From: an uncultured Bacteroidota bacterium
GTDB taxonomy: Bacteria; Bacteroidota; Bacteroidia; Bacteroidales; FEN-979
DNA: 35,957 nucleotides
Reading direction: 5' to 3'
Assembly (NCBI GenBank): GCA_937862805.1
Contig: CALMDO010000052.1
Span: forward strand, 1-35,957
The position numbers and the translations under genes were made by a program. Of this stretch, positions 20,151-32,038 are shown piece by piece. Numbering within the stretch: the first letter of the stretch is position 1; each line of letters opens with the position of its first letter. The notes beneath the pieces were generated by a model. That model searched no databases and had not been told where the DNA came from. It worked only from the letters and a program-made list of their open reading frames with translations.

Positions 20151-22223
20151 TTACAATCCCTCCCTTTTTCTTACGATCCATTCAAGGGTCAGCAGCGCCA
20201 CGATCAAAACAAAGAGCCATGGGGCTCCGGTAAGGTCGGAGAACTTTCTTTCATTGATCGCGACCGATTTCAGATCATCACGTTGCAGCAAGTGATCAGC
20301 AATCGTTTCCGTTTGCGCAGGATAGACCATCTTGCCTTCATGCGAATTTGCTATCCTGTAAAGCAGCGGATGGTCAGCCACAAGGTTGTAAAACTCTGCG
20401 TTGATCGGTTCTATGAAGAAGATCCCTTTTTTTTCGTACCGGTTCTGCCCGACCCGTGTGGATGCAACATAGGTGTAATTTCCAGGAGGAAGAATTCCGG
20501 CATTAAGAAAATAGGATTGGTTGGTTCTGCTAAAGACAAAGGGAAAATTCCGGCCATCGGAATTGGTAATCGTGATGTCGACCTCCGGATCGTTGATCAG
20601 TTCATACGAAGCATTAAACAATTCGGCTTCCATGACAACCGGGTCATTTTCATCAAACCGGGATTCGGCCGTAATCCGGAATAAGCTCTTATCCTCCGCA
20701 ACAGCCAGATAATGTACAGTTTTGTTGATCAGCCGGTCGAATGCTTCAGTGTTGTTTTCCTGTGCATAATTAGCCAATCTCCATCGCCAAATGTTTTCCC
20801 CTGTCAATACCCCGGTTTTTCTTTGCATCTCGCGAATGAAAACAAGGAGCGGATCGCGGGTGATCACCGATCCGGTACGCTGGAAAAACAATATTTCCGC
20901 AGTGGCAGCTGATTGGTAAAGACCGAATGGAGCCTGCAACGGTGGAAATTTGCTAAACAAGGGCGGGTCATTCGGCTCAAGGGTGAAAAGCGAAAAGCCG
21001 GGATTGAAAGAAGGTTGAACATCGTTGAAATTATCCGGTTTGGCAGTTATTATCAGACCGGTTTTTAGATTGTTGAATGCATTGATATCAGAGTTGGAAC
21101 CGAGCACATATAACAATGAGGTTCCGGATTCTGTGATTTTTTTCAGGTCGGCAACACCGGCAATCGAGGGCAACTGGTACAGGATGATCAGGTTATAATG
21201 ATCCTTCACCGGATTAAACTCCTTCAGACTGAACAGGCTGATCTCAAAACGGGGTGATCCTTCCAGTGCTTTGACCAAGGCTGCAATATCGGGGTGGGGA
21301 GCATCATAAACCAAGGCGATCTTTTGGCGTGTCTCTGAAACCTCCACGTAAAAATCCATCCGGTTGTTCTTAAGGTTCACCTCTCCTTCGACAGGAGCCA
21401 CATCTACCGTGTATCGGAAATGCCCGGCCTTTTCAGCGTGAATTGAAAAAGTGGTTTTGGTAACTGTCCGGTCATAAGTGGCCCGGATCTCTTTCTCTGA
21501 CAAAACTTTATCTCCCTCTAAAAGACGAACCATGGTCTTTGAACCCGACAGTTTATCCACTTCGGTGATGGCTTCGACTTGCAGTTGATCGCCTTTGTAA
21601 ACTGTTTTGTTGACCAGGATTTTCTGAACCAGGGCATCTTTTTTCCGGGTTGTGTCACCGAGGGCAATCGTGTAGATCGGGTAATCAATCTTACGGGCGG
21701 AATAGTAAGGATCTGTCCCTTTGTTATAAAGTCCGTCGGAGGCAATGATCAAAGCACCCGTATTTCTGTTTGAAAAGCGTGTTTCCATCTCTTCGATAAA
21801 GGATGCCATGTCAGTTTCCTTGTCTTTAAAGTCACCCGGGAAATGGTTGGATAGTTTTTCTCCGAAGGTAAAGACTTTGACTTCACATTTTTTCTCAAGC
21901 CTATCGATCAACCGGTTGATCATCTGCGGGAATTGAACCCGGACGGAAGCGGAATCGGGGGTTTGAACGACTGATGAGGAGTTATCGATCCCAATGATGA
22001 TGACAGGTTTTTCGATGCTTTTGATATTCCTGCGGATCATGGGAGAAAGAAGCAATGCTGAAATAAGAAAGACTGCGAGGAAGCGCAGAACAGCCAGAAA
22101 CAGGATCAGACGGGGTGATGTTTTTCGTTTTTTATCGAAGAAATAAAGTAAAAACGCGTAAACTACTCCGGCTAAAAGGCATATTACCAAATAGATGGCG
22201 GGGTTTTCAAAAACAATTCCCAA
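20151..22223 (-). CDS. Membrane-anchored VWA domain protein
   Basis: About 690 residues of unknown function. Two membrane helices at the N-terminus (about 7-28 and 38-61), then a von Willebrand A domain with a MIDAS site DNSSS (Asp80, Ser82, Ser84) and the later ASDG, a glutamine-amidotransferase-like middle, beta-sandwich segments, and one C-terminal helix (GAPWLFVLIVALLTLEWI) followed by a basic tail. This is the topology of BatA/BatB-like or gatase-VWA proteins of Bacteroidetes. No ATG is available: the frame opens at TTG 22259 inside fabG, but TTG 22223, 14 bases after the fabG stop, precedes the hydrophobic start FENPAIYLV and is preferred. Last gene of the leftward run. Confidence 0.8.
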   Translation of the reverse strand: MGIVFENPAIYLVICLLAGVVYAFLLYFFDKKRKTSPRLILFLAVLRFLAVFLISALLLSPMIRRNIKSIEKPVIIIGIDNSSSVVQTPDSASVRVQFPQMINRLIDRLEKKCEVKVFTFGEKLSNHFPGDFKDKETDMASFIEEMETRFSNRNTGALIIASDGLYNKGTDPYYSARKIDYPIYTIALGDTTRKKDALVQKILVNKTVYKGDQLQVEAITEVDKLSGSKTMVRLLEGDKVLSEKEIRATYDRTVTKTTFSIHAEKAGHFRYTVDVAPVEGEVNLKNNRMDFYVEVSETRQKIALVYDAPHPDIAALVKALEGSPRFEISLFSLKEFNPVKDHYNLIILYQLPSIAGVADLKKITESGTSLLYVLGSNSDINAFNNLKTGLIITAKPDNFNDVQPSFNPGFSLFTLEPNDPPLFSKFPPLQAPFGLYQSAATAEILFFQRTGSVITRDPLLVFIREMQRKTGVLTGENIWRWRLANYAQENNTEAFDRLINKTVHYLAVAEDKSLFRITAESRFDENDPVVMEAELFNASYELINDPEVDITITNSDGRNFPFVFSRTNQSYFLNAGILPPGNYTYVASTRVGQNRYEKKGIFFIEPINAEFYNLVADHPLLYRIANSHEGKMVYPAQTETIADHLLQRDDLKSVAINERKFSDLTGAPWLFVLIVALLTLEWIVRKREGL

Positions 22224-22237
22224 TGAATTACTAGTTT

Positions 22238-22990
22238 TCAGGTATGGAGGCCTCCGCAAACCGGGATGGCCTGTCCGGTGATGTAGGTACTCAGGTCAGA
22301 AGCCAGAAAGAGGGCCAGGTTGGCAACATCTTCCACTGTTCCTGGTCTTTTCAGAGGTATGTCCTGGATCCATTTATCCCTGAACTCCTGAGGAATCCTT
22401 GCTGTCATCTCTGTTTCGATAAAACCCGGTGCGATGGCGTTACAACGGATATTCCTGGAGCCAAGCTCCTGGGCCATTGATTTGGTAAAACCAATGATTC
22501 CTGCTTTGGAAGCAGCATAATTGGATTGGCCGCTGTTGCCCTCGATCCCTACCACAGAACTCATGTTGATGATAGAACCAAACCGTTGTTTGATCATCAC
22601 CTTTTGAATTGCTTTGGTGAGGTTGAAAACCGATTTCATGTTAACATTAACCACCATATCCCAATCGTTTTCACTCATTCTGAGCAACAGATTATCACGT
22701 GTAATTCCGGCATTGTTGACCAGGATGTCAATGGTTGTAAAATCATTGGTCACCTGGTTGATCAATTGTTCAGTGGCAGGGAACGAACTGGCATCGGAAG
22801 CATAACCTTTCGCTTTTACCCCCATTGCCTTCAGTTCATTTTCCAGTGCCACTGATTCGTCATTATGGAACAGGTCGGAGAACGCAATGTTGGCGCCCTG
22901 TTCAGCGAATTTTAAGGCGATGGCTTTGCCAATGCCCCTGTTGGCGCCTGTGATCAGGGCCGTTTTTCCTTCAAGAACTTTGTTGATCAT
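22238..22990 (-). CDS. fabG: 3-oxoacyl-ACP reductase
   Basis: NADPH-dependent short-chain dehydrogenase that reduces 3-oxoacyl-ACP in fatty-acid elongation. 250 residues with ALITGANRGIGKAIA (cofactor loop), NNAGITRDN, and catalytic Ser145, Tyr158 and Lys162 in the SSVVGIEG and YAASKAG segments. The ending TGQAIPVCGG is the FabG type. It follows the glycogen phosphorylase fusion by 56 bases on the same strand and has no evident promoter or preceding terminator, so it may be transcribed with the glycogen genes; no functional link is obvious. ATG start. Confidence 0.94.
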   Translation of the reverse strand: MINKVLEGKTALITGANRGIGKAIALKFAEQGANIAFSDLFHNDESVALENELKAMGVKAKGYASDASSFPATEQLINQVTNDFTTIDILVNNAGITRDNLLLRMSENDWDMVVNVNMKSVFNLTKAIQKVMIKQRFGSIINMSSVVGIEGNSGQSNYAASKAGIIGFTKSMAQELGSRNIRCNAIAPGFIETEMTARIPQEFRDKWIQDIPLKRPGTVEDVANLALFLASDLSTYITGQAIPVCGGLHT

Positions 22991-23046: not shown

Positions 23047-26000
23047 TTAAATCCACCGGATCAGTGTAAAGTCCTGGCGGTGAGGAAGAAGCGGACTTTT
23101 AGGAAAAAGTCTGAAGACAAAATCATAAACCCCGGCCTGGTTGATTGGTATATCGCAGACAAACGATGCAATGTTTTGTTCATTTCGGTTCAGTGTCATC
23201 TCTTCAATGAAATCAGGTTCTTTGACCTCATCATTCACTTTTTTCCCGAAAAGCACCTCAATACCGATGTCGGTTGCAGCTAATTCATTGAGATTAAGTA
23301 CTACTTCAGCTTTAAATGATTCTCCCAGCGACAACGGGTTCTGGTTGGAATCGGGTCCTTTCACCGATAACACTTCGATCCGGTCCCATCCCCTGATCAT
23401 TTTCCTTTTCCAACTGGCTATGTGACGGGCCATTTCGTAGTTTTTACCGGTCATTACCCTGGTCCGCTTAAACATGGGTTGGTAATATTGGCGGTAATAG
23501 TCATCCAATTGCCTTTTCATTGTAAAATGAGGAGCGATCTCGGAGATGGTGTTCTTGATATAAGATACCCATTTGACGGGGATATTTTGCGCATCCACAT
23601 GATAGAAAAGAGGGATGATCTGTTCCTCCAAGAGTGTATAGATTGTTTCGGCATCCAGGTCATCCTGGAAAACGGGGTTATCATAAGTCGACTCCTCCTG
23701 GATGGCCCAACCTGCATTGGGGCGGTAACCTTCGGCCCACCAGCCGTCGAGTACACTGAAATTGATAACCCCGTTCATCACGGCTTTTTCGCCGCTGGTG
23801 CCTGATGCTTCCAGCGGGCGGGTCGGGGTATTAAGCCAGATATCCACACCCTTGATTAAATACTTGGCCAACTCCATGTCGTAATTCTCTACAAACAAGA
23901 TTTTTCCAAGGTATTCAGGCATGCGGGATATTTCAAAGATCCTTTTTATCAGGTCCTGACCTGCTTTGTCGTGAGGATGGGCTTTGCCGGCAAATACGAA
24001 CTGGACGGGTTTCTCTTTGTTGTTGATGATCCTGGATAAACGGTCGAGGTTGCTGAAAAGCAGATGGGCTCTTTTGTAAGTGGCAAAACGACGGGCGAAA
24101 CCGATGGTGAGGGCTTTGGGTTGTGCATTCTCACGGATTTTGAAGATCAGTTTTGGGTTATCATGCCGCAAGGTCATGTCGCTGTATAACCGCTGAAGAA
24201 GGTATTCAGCCATTTGGGTTTTCTGCCGGAGTTTGGTTCTCCAAATCAATTCATCGTCAACCTGGTGGATTTTTTTCCAGTAAGTCGGGTTGGATTGGTC
24301 TTCGAGAAAACCCTCACCAAATTCCTTTAAATACAGCTGTTGCCATGATTTTGCCGTCCAGGTGGGGAAGTGAACGCCATTGGTGACATAACCGATATGG
24401 AGTTCTTTGGGGTAGTATCCGGGATATAGATCCCGGAACATATCCCGTGTGACCTTTCCATGGATTTTGCTCACGCCATTTATCTCCTGGGATAGTTTCG
24501 CTGCCAGTACACTCATGGAGAACAACTCTGCAGCATTGTCATCGATCATCCGGCCCAGGTTCATGAATTGGTTCCATTTAAGGGTCAGGTGGTCGGGATA
24601 ATGGGAAAGATAACGCCGCAGAAGGTCTTCAGGGAAGGTATCATGTCCTGCAGGGACAGGGGTATGGGTCGTAAAAAGGGTGGAACTGCGCACTACTTCC
24701 ATGGCTTGGGGGAAGGTCAGTTTCTCATTTTGTATGAGTTTCCTGAGTCTTTCCAGACTGATGAAAGCAGAGTGACCCTCATTGCTGTGGTAAAGGTCCG
24801 GTTTGATGTCGAGCAGGTCAAGCATCCGGATGCCGCCCAGGCCGAGCAGTAATTCCTGACAGAGGCGGTTTTCAAGGTCTCCTCCATAGAGTTGATGGGT
24901 AATCTTGCGGTCGTTCTCTTCATTTTCCTCAATGTCGGTATCCATCAGAAACAATGGAATACGCCCAACGTCACAACGCCAGATTTTCGCTACCAGGTTA
25001 CGTCCGGGAAGAGCAAGGGTAACTTTCAGCATGTTTCCCTGATCGTCACGGATCGGGACCAAGGGTAAATGGGTAAATTTCTGTGGGGTGAAGCTGGCGA
25101 TCTGGTCGCCGGAGAGAGAGAGAGATTGTTTAAAATAGCCATACCGATACAACAATCCGATACCTACGATGTTGACGTTCGAGTCGCTTGCCTCCTTCAG
25201 GTAGTCGCCCGCCAACATTCCCAACCCTCCCGAAAAAATCTTGATTGTATCATGAAGCCCGTACTCCATGCTGAAATAGGCAATCATTTCGCGCGGTTTT
25301 TCAGCAGCACAAGCCATGTAAGAGTCGAACTTGGATGTGACTTTGTTAAGTTTTCCTACAAACTTTTCGTTATTGCTAAGATTCTGTAATTCTTTGTATG
25401 AAAGGGATTCCAGCAATGCGATCGGGTTGAATTTGAATTCATACCAGCGTTGTTTGTTGATCATTTCAAAAAGTTCGGATCCTTCATAGTTCCACGACCA
25501 CCAGAGGTTTTTTGCCAACCGTTCGAGGCTGGCCAGGTTTTCGGGAATGGTTTGTTGGATCAGGACCTTTTTCCATTCAGGTTTGAGGGGAACCGTGGTT
25601 TTGAGCGACAGGGTTTGCGCCTGTGGTTGCTTACCGGCATAAAGTTCAGCACGCGATTCGCTGATCTCAAGCGTATTGGAATAGGCTTCCCGGTAATGGG
25701 AAATCAGGTTATCCCACAAAACCGATCGAGAAATCTCGTAAGCTTTGATCCTTGCCTTAATAATTTCTTTTTCAGCCTTTGCGCTGCAATTGATGATGGC
25801 CCTGACGATTTCTTCGACCACCTCTTTTTCGTTATCATCGTTCCGGTCGAGAATGGTGGTGCAGTCTTTCAGGGACGGGAAAAGTGATCTGACCCATTGG
25901 CCAAAACCAGAAAGGTTGGTGGTGATGGTGGGAATATGGAATGCAAGACTTTCAAGGGCTGCATAGCCCCAGGGTTCATAATACGAGGGGAAAACAGAAC

Positions 26001-27294
26001 CATCAAAACCGATCAACAGGTCATAATACATCAAGTTGAATACACCATCCATCCCATTCAGATTCACTGGTGAATAGATCACCGTCACTTTATCCTGGGG
26101 GTTGTTGCTCAAACCATTGGTCCTGATGCGTTTTAATATCAAATCATTTTCCGGCTCAGCTAACGTGTGGGTCAGGCAATCATCTGAGTAAAACGGCACC
26201 GCATCCGGATGTTCCAGCCTGTCGACAAGATCCTTCCTGGGCCCGGTTTGTGCCGTAGGAAAAGCAATCAATGCGATAATTTTTTGTTGCAGTTTTGGAT
26301 GCTTGTTCAACAAACCCAATGAATCAATGAACAAATCAACTCCTTTGTTGTGAAATTCATACCGCCCACTGTTGAACAGCATGATACAGTCGTCTGTCAA
26401 CGTTTCCCCGGTCAATGCGCGGGTTACTGCAAGAACTTTTTCCCTCGCTTTGATCCGTTTCTGGTTGTACTCTTCTTTGACCGGGACAAAGGAGTTGTCG
26501 AACCCGTCGGGGGTAAGCAAATCGACCTCCTTGTCGAGAAATTTTTCACATTCGTTAGCGATCAACTGGCTGACCGTGGTAAAACAATCGGCTTCATGGG
26601 CTGTCAGCTTTTCAAGCGAGTACTTTGCCATTACATTAAATTGTTTCGCAATGGCTTCGGCATGATAATTTTCAAAATTTTTGTACAAGGGCAGACCGCT
26701 TCCCGCAATGCAACGGCCAATCACTGTTCCGTGAGTAGTAAAGACTGTCCCAATCTGCGGAACCCGCTCTTTGAGGTACAAAACGCCTGTCCCTGTCAGC
26801 CATTCATGAAAGTGGGTAATGATTTTATCGAAATGGGAGAGGTGAAAATTGTAGAAGCTCTCAATGGTCTTTCCAACAGCATAACCGAAAAGCACTGGTT
26901 CGACATAATTCCAGTCGCCGCTGATTGAATCCAGTTTATATCGTTCCCAGAAATGGGCTAAAATTTTGTCTTTATCGGAAAAATAGGGAGTGAAATCGAT
27001 CAGTACAACGACCGGACGGCCGGGGATGTTCCAGCGACCCAATTTGATCCTGAGTCCTTCACTTTCCGCTTTTTCCCTCCATCCTTTATAGAGGAACCGG
27101 TCCTCAATGAATTCCGGGTTTTGGTGTGTCTCCTTCCATACATCAGGACCAAAAAGGATATAGTTGTCCTTGTATTCTTCTGCTAACAAATGTGCTTTGG
27201 TTGAAATAACGGTATGTATCCCTCCTACTTTATTGCAAATTTCCCAGCTTGTTTCGAACAGATAATCTGAAATCAGCATTGGCCTTTCTTTCAT
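23047..27294 (-). CDS. Fused glycogen synthase (GT3) - alpha-glucan phosphorylase (GT35)
   Basis: A single open frame of 1415 residues joining two opposed enzymes. Residues 1 to about 555 match eukaryotic-type glycogen synthase (GT3, UDP-glucose using by family): start FETSWEICNKVGGIHTVISTKA, and the catalytic SYYEPWGYAALES motif with Glu440 and Glu448, followed by TTNLSGFG. From about 581 (IPENLASLERLAKNLWWSWN) it is the short-type alpha-glucan phosphorylase with its DUF3417 N-terminal region and PLP lysine in ASGTSGEKAVMNG (about Lys1170). A beta-sandwich tail covers about 1300-1415. The linker (about 555-580) is short. Both active sites look intact. No frameshift or stop is needed. Fourth of five consecutive glucan genes. 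Confidence 0.94.
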   Translation of the reverse strand: MKERPMLISDYLFETSWEICNKVGGIHTVISTKAHLLAEEYKDNYILFGPDVWKETHQNPEFIEDRFLYKGWREKAESEGLRIKLGRWNIPGRPVVVLIDFTPYFSDKDKILAHFWERYKLDSISGDWNYVEPVLFGYAVGKTIESFYNFHLSHFDKIITHFHEWLTGTGVLYLKERVPQIGTVFTTHGTVIGRCIAGSGLPLYKNFENYHAEAIAKQFNVMAKYSLEKLTAHEADCFTTVSQLIANECEKFLDKEVDLLTPDGFDNSFVPVKEEYNQKRIKAREKVLAVTRALTGETLTDDCIMLFNSGRYEFHNKGVDLFIDSLGLLNKHPKLQQKIIALIAFPTAQTGPRKDLVDRLEHPDAVPFYSDDCLTHTLAEPENDLILKRIRTNGLSNNPQDKVTVIYSPVNLNGMDGVFNLMYYDLLIGFDGSVFPSYYEPWGYAALESLAFHIPTITTNLSGFGQWVRSLFPSLKDCTTILDRNDDNEKEVVEEIVRAIINCSAKAEKEIIKARIKAYEISRSVLWDNLISHYREAYSNTLEISESRAELYAGKQPQAQTLSLKTTVPLKPEWKKVLIQQTIPENLASLERLAKNLWWSWNYEGSELFEMINKQRWYEFKFNPIALLESLSYKELQNLSNNEKFVGKLNKVTSKFDSYMACAAEKPREMIAYFSMEYGLHDTIKIFSGGLGMLAGDYLKEASDSNVNIVGIGLLYRYGYFKQSLSLSGDQIASFTPQKFTHLPLVPIRDDQGNMLKVTLALPGRNLVAKIWRCDVGRIPLFLMDTDIEENEENDRKITHQLYGGDLENRLCQELLLGLGGIRMLDLLDIKPDLYHSNEGHSAFISLERLRKLIQNEKLTFPQAMEVVRSSTLFTTHTPVPAGHDTFPEDLLRRYLSHYPDHLTLKWNQFMNLGRMIDDNAAELFSMSVLAAKLSQEINGVSKIHGKVTRDMFRDLYPGYYPKELHIGYVTNGVHFPTWTAKSWQQLYLKEFGEGFLEDQSNPTYWKKIHQVDDELIWRTKLRQKTQMAEYLLQRLYSDMTLRHDNPKLIFKIRENAQPKALTIGFARRFATYKRAHLLFSNLDRLSRIINNKEKPVQFVFAGKAHPHDKAGQDLIKRIFEISRMPEYLGKILFVENYDMELAKYLIKGVDIWLNTPTRPLEASGTSGEKAVMNGVINFSVLDGWWAEGYRPNAGWAIQEESTYDNPVFQDDLDAETIYTLLEEQIIPLFYHVDAQNIPVKWVSYIKNTISEIAPHFTMKRQLDDYYRQYYQPMFKRTRVMTGKNYEMARHIASWKRKMIRGWDRIEVLSVKGPDSNQNPLSLGESFKAEVVLNLNELAATDIGIEVLFGKKVNDEVKEPDFIEEMTLNRNEQNIASFVCDIPINQAGVYDFVFRLFPKSPLLPHRQDFTLIRWI

Positions 27295-27363: not shown

Positions 27364-28767
27364 TCATTCTTTCTTTGTCGATTTTGTGGAACGTTTGGGT
27401 TGAGTCGAAGGTTTATCTTTTCCTTTTGCTTTTTTTCCGGTGGCAGTTTTTGTTTTGGTCGTGACCTTATTCGCCACTTTCTTTATGGTTTTTGGTCTGA
27501 TTGTTTTCTTTGTTTTTGAGGGCACAGATTTTGGTTTTTCTACTTTTTCCCGGAAAGGAAGTGCTTCACTTGCTTTCAATTCGAGATGGTCATCGACTCT
27601 GATCATAAAATCAGAAAGCACGTTCATGTAGTTGATAAACGCTTCATAAGGAGAGCCATAAGGATTGAAATACTGATGAACTTCACCTGCAGAGAACCAT
27701 TTGGTGCACATGTAGTAAAAATGGTTGCTCGTTTGGAGGTAAAGCCAGTCACGTTGCAGGTCAGGATCAGTGCAGTTTTTCATTTTTGCGCCGTAGGAAT
27801 AGAGTTTTGCAAAGGCTTCATCCTGCAGTTCATTACCCAGCCAGGCGGTAAGATCCCTTTCTTCATCGGCCCAGGAGATGGGGTGGAGTACGGTAATGGC
27901 AGATACCGGCTGCAGTTCCTTATAAAGGTTATCCGGTGTACTGAAGGTAAAGTTGGATTTTGAAAGAACGGTGGAAGGCAAATGACGGAAAAAATCGAAG
28001 ATTCCTGTCTCTTTCCATTGATGTTCACCGATGGTCTCGTAATCGAGGAAAAGGTTGACCACCTCCTCTTTTTTATCAATGGTATTGAGCCAGCGGACAA
28101 ACTTTTCGGTGGTTAGCGGCCATTCTGACCAATCCTGGTTGGAGAAGCGGAAGGTCAGGTCGTCGCTGAGCCTGAAATTTCTCAATAATACCTTCAGTTT
28201 GGGGTTGATGTTATTGCAGTACATGTAGTTTGGGCTCTTCCATCCCATGATATGCCTTGCACCTTCCGTCAGCATGGTATGAAATCCCATGTCCGCTACC
28301 ATCTCCCCTATCTTGTCAGAATAGATCAATTCAGTATTTCTGAAAGTAACTGGTTTTTGTCCGAAAAGTTCTTCGATTTTATCGCTGTGAAGCGCTACCT
28401 GTCTGACGAATTCTTCGCTATTCTTCAGGCACGACAGGGAATGAGCGTAGGTCTCGGCAATAAATTCTACCTGTCCTGTGGCTGCTAAATCCTGAAAACT
28501 CCTGATTACTTCCGGAACGTGGATTTGAAGTTGTTCCAGTGCCATTCCTGAGATGGAATAGCTCACTTTGAAAGCGTTTCCAAACTCTCTGATCAGGTCA
28601 AGCATCATTTTGTTGGCCGGCAAATAACATTTTTCGGCCACTCTTTTAATAATATGACGATTCTGGTAGTCATCATAATAGTGATGGTCTTCTCCGATGT
28701 TGAAAAACCGGTAAGTTCTCAACCTGAACGGCTGATGGACTTGAAAATATAGACATATCGATCTCAT
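27364..28767 (-). CDS. Glycoside hydrolase family 57 protein (alpha-amylase-like) with basic Lys/Thr tail
   Basis: 467-residue GH57 retaining enzyme acting on alpha-1,4-glucans (amylase, glucanotransferase or branching types exist). Conserved regions: CLYFQVHQPFRLR at the start, nucleophile Glu146 in FRNTELIYSD, acid/base Asp242 in LDYETIGEH. The catalytic barrel ends near residue 400; the last 60 or so residues are a low-complexity Lys/Thr/Pro tail ending STKSTKKE. No signal peptide, so cytoplasmic. I use the ATG at 28767, four bases after the GT4 stop; the frame reaches a TTG at 28803 inside the GT4 gene, but homology starts at MRSICLYF. Role with the fused synthase/phosphorylase: trimming, transfer or branching of glycogen chains. 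Confidence 0.92.
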   Translation of the reverse strand: MRSICLYFQVHQPFRLRTYRFFNIGEDHHYYDDYQNRHIIKRVAEKCYLPANKMMLDLIREFGNAFKVSYSISGMALEQLQIHVPEVIRSFQDLAATGQVEFIAETYAHSLSCLKNSEEFVRQVALHSDKIEELFGQKPVTFRNTELIYSDKIGEMVADMGFHTMLTEGARHIMGWKSPNYMYCNNINPKLKVLLRNFRLSDDLTFRFSNQDWSEWPLTTEKFVRWLNTIDKKEEVVNLFLDYETIGEHQWKETGIFDFFRHLPSTVLSKSNFTFSTPDNLYKELQPVSAITVLHPISWADEERDLTAWLGNELQDEAFAKLYSYGAKMKNCTDPDLQRDWLYLQTSNHFYYMCTKWFSAGEVHQYFNPYGSPYEAFINYMNVLSDFMIRVDDHLELKASEALPFREKVEKPKSVPSKTKKTIRPKTIKKVANKVTTKTKTATGKKAKGKDKPSTQPKRSTKSTKKE

Positions 28768-28771
28768 ATGA

Positions 28772-30058
28772 TCATTTATATACAGCTTTGTTATACACTT
28801 CAATTACATTCAGGGCAGCATTTTCCCATTTCAGGTTATCGACTTCTGCTTTCCCGTATCGAACGAACATACTGCGCAGGGCATCGTAGTGGAGAATACC
28901 GTAAATTGCGTCAGCCAATGCATCGATGTCCCAAAAATCGACTTTAAGGGCATGTTTCAGCACTTCGGCAACCCCCGATTGTTTGGAGATCACCACCGGC
29001 ACATTGGAGCGCATGGCTTCAAGAGGCGAGATTCCGAAAGGCTCAGAGACCGATGGCATCACATACACGTCGCTCATGGCGAACATGGTATCGACTTCCT
29101 GGCCTGCCAGGAATCCTGTGAAATGGAATTTGGTAGAGATTTTTAGTTGGGCTACACGGCGGATCATCCGGTTTAGCAGATCGCCCGAACCGGCCATTAC
29201 GAACCGTACATTGGGATCCCGTTGCAACACTTTGTAAGCAGCTTCTACAAAGTAATCGGGACCTTTCTGATAGGTCACCCTCCCAAGGAAAGTGACGATT
29301 TTTTCCCTGACATGTTTTTGGACTCCTTCCATTCCCGGACGATCGACCGGTTCAACGGCGTTGTGTACCGTAATGACTTTTTCCGGGTCGATACCATACC
29401 GCTCGATTACAATTTGGCGGGTCAGGTTGCTTACGGTAATAACCAGGTCAGCTTCCGTCATACCTCTCCGCTCTATATCATAAACCGGTTGGTTTACGTG
29501 TTCTCCCGAACGATCAAATTCTGTGGCATGAACATGAATTACAAGCGGTTTACCGGTAATCTCTTTGGCAGCTATACCTGCAGGATAGGTCAGCCAATCG
29601 TGAGCATGGATCACATCAAAACTGTTGTTCTGAGCAATGGACGAGGCGACCAGTGCATACCTTGACACCTCTTCCATAAGGTTGGGCCCGTATTTACCCG
29701 AAAAGGTGAAATGCCTGGAAAAAACACTCCTTTTAACCTCTTCCCCGGTCTTTATATCGGAAACATTCAGCTTTTCAAACTCCTCCGGATCCAGGTAAGG
29801 CACCAGGTTGGAACCAATTTCCAGATACTTTATTTTCTCCCAGAACTCCTGGCTCTCTTTCTGATGAAAGTCAAGCGTTACTTCACTGGCATTGACCAGG
29901 CGAAAACCCTCTTTGGTTTCATCACCAAAAGCTTTCGGGACGACAAAGATCACCTCGGTACCATGTTTCACAAGTCCTTTGGTTAACCCGAAACAGGCCG
30001 TACCCAAACCACCGGTGATGTGGGGAGGAAATTCCCAGCCAAACATTAATACACGCAT
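28772..30058 (-). CDS. GT4 family glycosyltransferase (glycogen cluster)
   Basis: 428-residue GT-B glycosyltransferase of family GT4. N-terminal acceptor domain begins MRVLMFGWEFPPHITGGLGTA; the nucleotide-sugar domain has FLGRVTYQKGPDYFVEA and the E-x7-E motif SEPFGISPLEAM, with VIHAHDWLTYPAG typical of glycogen/starch synthase relatives. It follows the debranching gene by 33 bases and precedes GH57 by four, so it is part of the glucan operon. Donor and acceptor not assignable: it could extend alpha-glucans or prime them. No signal peptide; soluble. ATG start. Confidence 0.9.
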   Translation of the reverse strand: MRVLMFGWEFPPHITGGLGTACFGLTKGLVKHGTEVIFVVPKAFGDETKEGFRLVNASEVTLDFHQKESQEFWEKIKYLEIGSNLVPYLDPEEFEKLNVSDIKTGEEVKRSVFSRHFTFSGKYGPNLMEEVSRYALVASSIAQNNSFDVIHAHDWLTYPAGIAAKEITGKPLVIHVHATEFDRSGEHVNQPVYDIERRGMTEADLVITVSNLTRQIVIERYGIDPEKVITVHNAVEPVDRPGMEGVQKHVREKIVTFLGRVTYQKGPDYFVEAAYKVLQRDPNVRFVMAGSGDLLNRMIRRVAQLKISTKFHFTGFLAGQEVDTMFAMSDVYVMPSVSEPFGISPLEAMRSNVPVVISKQSGVAEVLKHALKVDFWDIDALADAIYGILHYDALRSMFVRYGKAEVDNLKWENAALNVIEVYNKAVYK

Positions 30059-30091: not shown

Positions 30092-32038
30092 TTACTTTTG
30101 GTATTGTTCTATCAGATAAGTCATTCGTAGCAATTCTGCCACCGAAGTGGCGTACGAGATAGCGCCCCGCGGTGTGTGTGGAGGATCTCCATCGTAAATT
30201 TCGGAGATCGATCCGATACCATGTTCCGTCATCACTGCTTCAAAGCCCTGGAAAATCCCTTTAATGATCGACAAGCCGCTTCTCCCATGGATTTTCAGGT
30301 ATCCTTCCGTAAAATGACCTAAAAGCCATGGCCGTACGGTCCCCTGGTGGTAGGCGCTCTCTCTTTCAGTGTTATTCCCGAAATAGGATCCTTTGTAAAC
30401 AGGGCTTTTGGGTGTGAGTGTGCGAAGGCCCCGGGTAGTCAGTAACTCTTGTTTGGTACGGCTGAGGATATCTTTCCTTATCTCCTCGCTTACCGGACTG
30501 TAAGGCAACGATGCAACGAAGATCATGTTAGGCCGTACGGCCCAATCTTTATAGGTTCCATATACATGGTCAGCCATATAACGTTTGGTCGGATTCCAAA
30601 AGGTTTCGAGGAACGAGGCAGGGATTTTCTCAACCAGTGGTTCCCAATCATTGATAAACTGCTGATCGTTTGCCAAATGTGCCATTTCAATGCTAAAACA
30701 GATCGCATTATACCAGAGGGCATTGATTTCAACACATTTACCCATTCTGGGTGTTACCGGTTTCCCATCAACATACGCATCCATCCAGGTCAGCGCCATG
30801 CCGGGGACCCCGGCCGAAATCAGTCCGTCGGGTTCCATGGAAATACCAAAATCGGTACCATCCCGGTATGCTTCAAGGATCAATCTCATCGTTTTTCCAT
30901 AAAGAGGCCATATTCCGCCGCGGGTACCCGTAAATTCAGCATATTGCTGCAAGGCCCAGAAAAACCATAAAGGAGTATCTACGGCGTTGTATGTGGCCGA
31001 ATTTCCTTTGCCGGTGTTGGGAAAGAAAGGCCCTCTCATCTCCGAGATCATGGTATCGATCACCGCTTTACAGGTCTTATAATCCCCATGGATCAGTGTC
31101 AGTCCGGGTAAAGCCACGAAAGTGTTCCGGCCGATCCTGCCAAACCAGGGAAAACCGGCCAGGATATCGACTTTTTTTCCGCTTTTCACAATGAACTGCA
31201 TCGCAGAATTGATCAGGCAAGCCTTGAAATCGTTCCGGGGAAGCCTCGTCCGAAGCTCCGTGTCAAAGAGCCGCTTGATTTTTAAAGGGTTCAGTTCAGC
31301 AGTGCCCAGCGAAAGATAAATACTCTCCCCCTTGGCAAGTGCAAACTCGAAAAATCCGGGGACATAAAGATCTTCTCTGCACTCGTAGCCCCGGTTCATC
31401 TCCTCCTGGTATTCGATGTTATAATACCAATCGGGGACATGGGTGTATTCATCCGGTTTGGAAAACTGGATGAACAGCTCCGTATAACCATGGTACATCC
31501 TTAACTTGATTCCGTTAGGGATCTTCTCGTACTTTTTATCAGCAAATATGTTCTCTTTACTCAGTGAATGGATATTGCGGAAAGCCAGAAAAGGCCGGAT
31601 ACGGATTTGCGTCGGGGAGTGAGCATCTACCAGCGTGTAACGGATGATCATCCGATCTTCACTGTTAATGAAAGCAAGTTCCTTCGTAAGGATCACCCCC
31701 CCTACCCGGTACGTCAGTTTGGGTAAAGGTTCAGAAACAAAATCACGAATGTATTTGTGCCCCTTTGGATTGTAAACATTGTTCGGATACCGGTGAATGC
31801 CAAGGTTGAACTCTGATTCCATCTGGATGATGGTTTCATCGATCGCTGATACGAGTACATGATTTTCATGGTCCACTCCCGGTTGGGGGGTAATCAGCAT
31901 GCCATGGTACTTTCGGGTATTGCAGTTGATAATTGTCGAATTGGCGTAGGCTCCGGAACTGTTCGAACGGAGCAGCTCCCGGCTCAACGAATACTCCAGG
32001 TTGATCAGTTGGGTCTTATCAAAATTGATGTAACTCAT
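30092..32038 (-). CDS. Glycogen debranching enzyme (amylo-alpha-1,6-glucosidase, GH133 type)
   Basis: 648-residue enzyme that hydrolyses alpha-1,6 branch stubs. N-terminal bacterial GDE domain (1 to about 260; starts LEYSLSRELLRSNSSGAYAN, CNTRKYHGML), then an (alpha/alpha)6 GH133 domain with FPWFGRIGRNTF, LTWMDAYVDGKPVTPRMGK, EINALWYNAI and YHQGTVRPWLLGHFTEGYLK. The Asp in TWMDA and the C-terminal QGTVWPW-like segment (here QGTVRPW) are the usual catalytic region. First gene of the leftward glucan run; candidate -7 boxes lie just upstream. No signal peptide. ATG start. Confidence 0.94.
   Translation of the reverse strand: MSYINFDKTQLINLEYSLSRELLRSNSSGAYANSTIINCNTRKYHGMLITPQPGVDHENHVLVSAIDETIIQMESEFNLGIHRYPNNVYNPKGHKYIRDFVSEPLPKLTYRVGGVILTKELAFINSEDRMIIRYTLVDAHSPTQIRIRPFLAFRNIHSLSKENIFADKKYEKIPNGIKLRMYHGYTELFIQFSKPDEYTHVPDWYYNIEYQEEMNRGYECREDLYVPGFFEFALAKGESIYLSLGTAELNPLKIKRLFDTELRTRLPRNDFKACLINSAMQFIVKSGKKVDILAGFPWFGRIGRNTFVALPGLTLIHGDYKTCKAVIDTMISEMRGPFFPNTGKGNSATYNAVDTPLWFFWALQQYAEFTGTRGGIWPLYGKTMRLILEAYRDGTDFGISMEPDGLISAGVPGMALTWMDAYVDGKPVTPRMGKCVEINALWYNAICFSIEMAHLANDQQFINDWEPLVEKIPASFLETFWNPTKRYMADHVYGTYKDWAVRPNMIFVASLPYSPVSEEIRKDILSRTKQELLTTRGLRTLTPKSPVYKGSYFGNNTERESAYHQGTVRPWLLGHFTEGYLKIHGRSGLSIIKGIFQGFEAVMTEHGIGSISEIYDGDPPHTPRGAISYATSVAELLRMTYLIEQYQK

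Follow-up and report, generated by a model that had tools for sequence, protein, structure and literature searches.

A single-chain glycogen synthase-phosphorylase common among Bacteroidales and its probable fission into adjacent genes

The window analyzed here is a 35,957-nucleotide stretch of contig CALMDO010000052.1 (assembly GCA_937862805.1) from an uncultured member of the Bacteroidales (lineage FEN-979), and its subject is a gene that joins a GT3 glycogen synthase to a GT35 alpha-glucan phosphorylase in one polypeptide. An earlier reading of this DNA, made without database searches (the sequence-only reading), had described a single frame of 1415 residues at positions 23047 to 27294. That frame is present, with an ATG start, on the minus strand (27294 to 23047), a point which the reading had left unmentioned: the plus strand of this interval contains many stops, and its reverse complement gives 1415 residues with zero stops, so that no stop separates the halves. 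A domain search of the whole protein, proposed in the same reading, matched GT3, DUF3417, and GT35 in Pfam and NCBIfam. The GT3 half spans approximately residues 10 to 545 (25660 to 27267, on the minus strand as are all features of this gene; PF05693, E value of 6.2e-95) and scored 319.6 bits with Pfam Glycogen_syn against a cut-off of 27. It is followed by a linker of about 33 residues (approximately residues 546 to 578; 25561 to 25659) that was modeled with low confidence, a DUF3417 domain (residues 583 to 683; 25246 to 25548; PF11897, E value of 1.9e-30), and the catalytic part of GT35 (residues 671 to 1273; 23476 to 25284). The latter matched Pfam Phosphorylase (E value of 2.2e-34) and the NCBIfam alpha-glucan phosphorylase model TIGR02094 at 837.9 bits (cut-off, 191.7) over profile positions 1 to 600 of 600; the Thermococcales maltodextrin phosphorylase model NF041129 gave 738.9 bits, under its equivalog cut-off of 1500. 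The C-terminal part of the phosphorylase half (residues 1274 to 1415; 23050 to 23475) belongs to the same enzyme, as the sequence match to the Segatella copri phosphorylase 20yr (E value of 1.9e-275) reaches the last residue. The phosphorylase is thus complete, as had been predicted, but the label "short-type" does not fit it: it is of the DUF3417/TIGR02094 type, about 830 residues long and akin to the S. copri enzyme, and is not a shortened form.

Both active sites appear to be preserved. The GT3 motifs lie where they had been placed, with NKVGGIHTV at residues 21 to 29 and EPWGYAALE at residues 440 to 448, and the pyridoxal phosphate (PLP) lysine expected near residue 1170 is K1170 by alignment (23785 to 23787). 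Five residues of yeast Gsy2p that we take to be catalytic, R199, R320, K326, E509, and E517, align with R194 (26713 to 26715), R311 and K317 in the stretch RYEFHNK (26344 to 26364), and E440 and E448 at the two ends of EPWGYAALE (25951 to 25977). In the GT35 half, the phosphate-site residues R1069 and K1074 (24073 to 24090) are kept along with K1170; in muscle phosphorylase these presumably correspond to R569, K574, and K680. Inactivating changes, to which the sequence-only reading had drawn attention, were found in none of the tested residues of either half of the window protein. Of 100 distinct full fusions, 95 retain all five GT3 residues, as do all 46 copies in which the halves are separate neighboring genes (split copies), and the tested GT35 residues are intact in 107/107 full rows, 100 of them distinct. 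An AlphaFold2 model of the GT3 half (predicted local distance difference test score of 88.1, predicted template modeling score [pTM] of 0.87) superimposed on yeast Gsy2p (5sul; Z score of 37.2, root mean square deviation [rmsd] of 2.8, 530 residues aligned) and human GYS1 (8z0a; Z score of 37.8, rmsd of 3.4, 539 aligned); the top structure match beyond glycogen synthases had a Z score of 27.1 (rmsd of 3.1, 370 aligned). The phosphorylase half matched the S. copri structure 20yr with a Z score of 44.0 (rmsd of 3.5, 817 aligned). Judged by conserved residues, each half seems capable of catalysis.

The fusion is the commonest form of these enzymes in the order. The sequence-only reading had guessed that such fusions might be widespread in Bacteroidales, and with frame length as a proxy for fusion, 193 of the 295 Bacteroidales genomes surveyed had a GT3 frame of at least 1000 residues, 179 of these frames being at least 1370 residues long. 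A GT3 match of some kind occurred in 259/295. Separate GT3 genes were found in 51 genomes, 50 of them with frames of 520 to 660 residues; the other, G209, has a 1442-residue stretch with a stop between the halves and was counted as split. The remainder consisted of contig ends or GT3 fragments (12), eukaryote-like unfused GT3 only (3), and genomes with no GT3 (36). Direct examination of 179 loci, 39 from a scan of public genomes and 140 fetched and chosen to take in split and odd cases, with 7 loci duplicated between the two sets, identified 106 full fusions, 14 fusions that were short or truncated, 46 separate adjacent pairs, 8 loci with GT3 alone, of which 3 lie at contig ends, and 5 with GT35 alone. 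The public scan was queried with six peptides of the window protein and therefore covers only close relatives, so that fusions may also occur in other phyla; both halves shared one frame at 34 of its 39 loci. A chance fusion is excluded by these 34 loci together with the fused-length frames of the 193 genomes. In a sample of 395 genomes from the phylum, the GT3 cut-off was exceeded in 13 that lie outside the order, all of them with unfused genes of 607 to 669 residues. An apparent triple fusion in G035 (a frame of 1891 residues) was rejected, as its extra 480 residues match no neighboring window protein and read as a stop-free upstream stretch. Two contigs of one genome (L016 and L017) carry similar fused genes, both cut by a contig edge at query residue 1184.

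The linker is variable in sequence and nearly constant in length. Between the conserved residues W527 and W574 lie 42 to 49 residues, with 45 to 47 in 96/112 rows, a count that omits L198 and L199 (97/113 before their removal). Because length is held while sequence varies, we suggest that the linker is a tether of set reach.

In eukaryotes, activation of the synthase by glucose-6-phosphate (G6P) offers an escape from futile cycling. Of the residues that we take to form the G6P site of the yeast enzyme, only R587 is kept in the window protein; H500 is replaced by D, R583 by I, Q283 by N, H286 by R, and K290 by R. D also occupies the H500 position in 99 of 100 distinct fused copies and in 46/46 split copies, and the R583 equivalent is R in 12/100 fused copies. 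The insert between two stretches of the GT3 profile, which presumably forms the tetramer helices, measures 25 residues in the window protein versus 82 in yeast. By contrast, all 22 unfused eukaryote-like GT3 proteins read from Bacteroidota retain H500, R583, and Q283, and all have the insert, at 73 to 78 residues by a slightly different count that gives 26 for the window protein. In neither its site residues nor its insert does the window protein resemble a eukaryotic-type G6P-regulated GT3, and activation by G6P is unlikely here because most of the binding residues are not conserved. As split copies also lack the site, its absence is a trait of this type of GT3 and no proven result of the fusion.

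The phosphorylase gene directly follows the GT3 gene, on the same strand, in 46 of the 51 split genomes, all of which were fetched. The open frames of 44 of the 46 pairs lie -74 to 162 bases apart, and the other two overlap by 772 bases, the phosphorylase frame there being open far upstream. The pair in G209 (L212) is separated by exactly three bases, a single TAG codon, and three-base gaps also occur at L109, L165, and L167. One change is enough to account for fused and split rows on the GT3 tree and likewise on the GT35 tree. The root of the GT3 tree is not resolved; on a FastTree of GT35 rooted with outgroups, the split clade lies within the fused rows. A tree of RpoB from 29 genomes (of 30 tried, G240 lacked an rpoB match; the window's genome was represented by the first of its two rpoB copies) also nests the split genomes among fused ones, and a tree in which the fused genomes were held together was rejected in an approximately unbiased (AU) test (p-AU of 3.8e-60). 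Since the fused genome G133 lies among the split ones and could alone have forced this rejection, the test was repeated without it, and the constrained tree was again rejected (p-AU of 4.81e-05).

We consider it likely that the window protein is a bifunctional enzyme of glycogen ends, of the form commonest in its order, and that this form was probably split once into adjacent genes. The N-terminal GT3 half would transfer glucose to the non-reducing ends of glycogen from a nucleotide sugar, expected from its family to be UDP-glucose, and the C-terminal GT35 half would remove it again as glucose 1-phosphate, with the linker holding synthase and phosphorylase at one to one. The net direction would be set by the concentrations of nucleotide sugar, phosphate, and glucose 1-phosphate rather than by an allosteric switch on the synthase. 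The one split would have occurred in a lineage that includes a Bacteroides phosphorylase. From conserved residues we infer both activities; we further infer their sharing of one glycogen particle and a direction set by metabolites.

Several observations weigh against this interpretation. No measured activity was found for any fused member, and a model of residues 290 to 1415 (pTM of 0.63, with a low-confidence linker) gives docking of the halves no support. The GT3 half has been changed or lost in several lineages in which the phosphorylase persists, and one contig-cut fusion (L119) carries T where the PLP lysine should be, with no other TIGR02094 gene in its draft genome; both suggest that the pairing of synthase and phosphorylase is dispensable. 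In 5 of the 51 split genomes (G041, G087, G189, G245, and G277), the phosphorylase gene lies elsewhere in the genome. It likewise lies away from the synthase gene in Bacteroides caecigallinarum (L034), the phosphorylase of which groups in the split clade of the GT35 tree. The fused genome G133 is placed among split genomes by RpoB, where it pairs with the split genome G019; since its fused gene (L207) groups with fused rows, this suggests transfer. Finally, AU tests on the GT35 tree do not reject the reverse order of events, in which the genes were separate first and fused once (p-AU of 0.565 and 0.309), and in the first of these tests the tree held to that order was 3.63 log units better.

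These last tests are what sustains the strongest alternative, a younger fusion in which two adjacent genes were ancestral and became fused once outside the split lineage, and the unresolved root of the GT3 tree is compatible with it as well. As the GT35 tests fail to reject this order, the direction of change rests on the RpoB tree, which represents one gene but which nests split genomes within fused ones and rejects a grouping of all fused genomes. The gene tree alone leaves the direction unsettled and the RpoB tree favors fission; if inheritance has been mostly vertical, the two-gene state probably arose once in that way. We therefore regard a younger fusion as unlikely.

The gene is preceded directly, on the same strand, by genes for a glycogen debranching enzyme (30092 to 32038; GDE_N E value of 3.7e-74, GDE_C E value of 1.3e-92), a GT4 glycosyltransferase (28772 to 30058; PF00534, E value of 5.1e-36), and, next to it, a GH57 glycosidase (27364 to 28803; PF03065, E value of 1.4e-74). 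The GT4 protein scored 116.1 bits with glgA_Coryne, under the cut-off of 302.4, and what GT4 genes do in the glycogen metabolism of archaea is called unclear in a passage of PMC11046441. Among 99 distinct full fusions, with loci cut by contig ends scored as misses, relatives of the debranching enzyme were found upstream of 57 and relatives of GT4 and GH57 upstream of 60 each. Downstream, on the same strand, lie a gene for a FabG-like reductase and then a frame of 702 residues (20151 to 22259) that had no Pfam or NCBIfam match at the cut-off used and has a relative downstream of 24 of the 99 fusions. The window contains no tRNA genes, and predictions of promoters (17 versus 14.6 in shuffles) and terminators (7 versus 11.7) were uninformative.

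This neighborhood bears on a second alternative, in which the two halves form a synthetic partnership, the phosphorylase priming or lengthening short chains from glucose 1-phosphate and the synthase extending them. A role of this kind has been proposed for plant Pho1. The near-constant length of the linker suggests joint work of the halves, and eukaryotic GT3 enzymes require a primer made by glycogenin, as stated in a section of PMC11046441. The debranching enzyme gene in the same run fits breakdown, however, and lineages with only the phosphorylase suggest that it is useful without a synthase; we find such a partnership improbable.

A scaffold role for one half had been raised in the sequence-only reading. 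In the form considered here, the GT3 half would mainly bind glycogen or hold an oligomer together and the phosphorylase would be the working enzyme. The residues of the window protein suggest otherwise, although the idea may hold for some relatives. At least one of the five key GT3 residues is changed in 5/100 distinct full fusions, with the tested GT35 residues unchanged in all of them; in Gsy2 numbering the changes are E509D in L006 and L204, R199N in L202, K326R and E517C in L027, and R199S, K326E, and E509K in L201. L006 shares a 13-row clade with the window protein and has no other GT3 gene in its genome. Two loci of one genus, L198 (6953 to 10423) and L199 (1063 to 4626), encode fused proteins of 1157 and 1188 residues that have lost most of the second GT3 lobe: the GT3 match ends at residues 250 and 264, a remnant of the last GT3 helix precedes the linker, and the phosphorylase is whole, with its tested residues present. 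For these two loci the GT3 slice ran into the phosphorylase, and their GT3/GT35 distance ratios, residues past about 250, and GT3-tree branch, all spurious, were left unused. A third genome listed under this genus, G241, has a frame of 1437.

Decay is not confined to the synthase half, contrary to what we had initially proposed. At L119 (3 to 3803, minus strand; G282), cut by a contig end, the GT3 residues are kept and the PLP lysine is replaced, and no other TIGR02094 gene was found in this 86%-complete draft genome, although a single base error could also be the source of the T. G282 also contains a eukaryote-like GT3 (L042). Decay and loss have thus affected mostly the synthase half. Genes for the phosphorylase only stand beside fused rows in several parts of the GT35 tree: L240 and L241 with L136 (support of 89), L242 with L204 (99), L245 to L247 with L148 (99), L248 with L130 (100), and L244 in an otherwise fused set of six rows (98). 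In one tally, rows L242, L243, and L250 came from the wrong frame of the locus and were not used. L245 to L247 come from three genomes of one family and encode unfused phosphorylases preceded, as usual, by debranching, GT4, and GH57 genes. Because the sole GT3 gene in these genomes is eukaryote-like and lies elsewhere, this arrangement reads as replacement of the fused synthase by a foreign one. Of the 36 GT3-less genomes, 20 were queried for GT35 and 5 had a TIGR02094 phosphorylase, that of G096 (L243) grouping with the outgroups. The sample was found via GT3 or the window protein and is therefore biased against fusions without GT3 and partly against other losses.

Against a scaffold stand the five intact residues of the window protein and of 95 of the 100 distinct full fusions, and the content of the window's own genome. 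In this draft (329 contigs, 91.8% complete, 3.3% contamination), one GT3 gene and one GT35 gene were found, both being the fusion frame, and no GT5 synthase exceeded the curated cut-off, a 284-residue frame with an N-terminal GT5 fragment being all that was found. Similar fragments occurred in 15 of 15 genomes checked, in frames of 266 to 310 residues, and such a fragment is mentioned for Bacteroidetes in part of PMC11046441. The draft contains two partial rpoB copies (contigs C119 and C248; L288 and L289) and therefore probably mixes two strains or species. For the window protein, a scaffold in place of a working synthase appears distinctly improbable. An artifact, either of assembly or through an undetected stop or frameshift where the halves join, is practically negligible even for so fragmented and slightly contaminated a draft, given the same architecture and length in other assemblies, including the single-contig genomes G214 and G224 (L123 and L137).

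The fusion joins two known families, and its novelty is the combination; no description of it was found in searches of open-licence PMC papers. The S. copri glycogen phosphorylase (PDB 9l6i and 20yr), of the same type as the C-terminal half (46 to 47% identity over 817 to 821 residues), forms a chain of its own (about 852 residues) and lacks a synthase half. Conversely, yeast Gsy2p and human GYS1, which share the fold and key catalytic residues of the GT3 half (28 to 32% identity among the top rows), have no phosphorylase half. The split pairs of Bacteroidales contain the same families in two genes and, unlike fusion loci, had no relatives of GH57, GT4, or the debranching enzyme over 150 bits in the fetched stretch (0/46). 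TreS-Mak and Neisseria GlgB-MalQ, named in a passage of PMC11046441, are likewise single chains that combine two glycogen-metabolizing enzymes, but neither pairs a synthase with its opposing phosphorylase.

More broadly, we propose tentatively, and with slightly less than even confidence, that the ancestral glycogen enzyme of the order combined synthase and phosphorylase in one chain and lacked the G6P switch of eukaryotes, a single molecule lengthening and trimming the same chain ends with its direction set by metabolites alone. The separate enzymes of Bacteroides and its close relatives would have come from one later fission, and the synthase half would have been repeatedly inactivated or discarded, leaving a silent synthase fold in some lineages. 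In textbook accounts of glycogen control, separate synthase and phosphorylase enzymes are switched in opposite senses. A fusion spread through an order, with a near-constant linker and lacking the known switch on the synthase, makes the question of futile cycling testable in one purified protein. The interest of the fusion lies in its spread over the order, its likely fission in the Bacteroides lineage, and the repeated loss of its synthase half. The evidence suggests that the two-gene state of the Bacteroides lineage is derived, and conclusions reached there may not carry over to the many Bacteroidales with the fused form.

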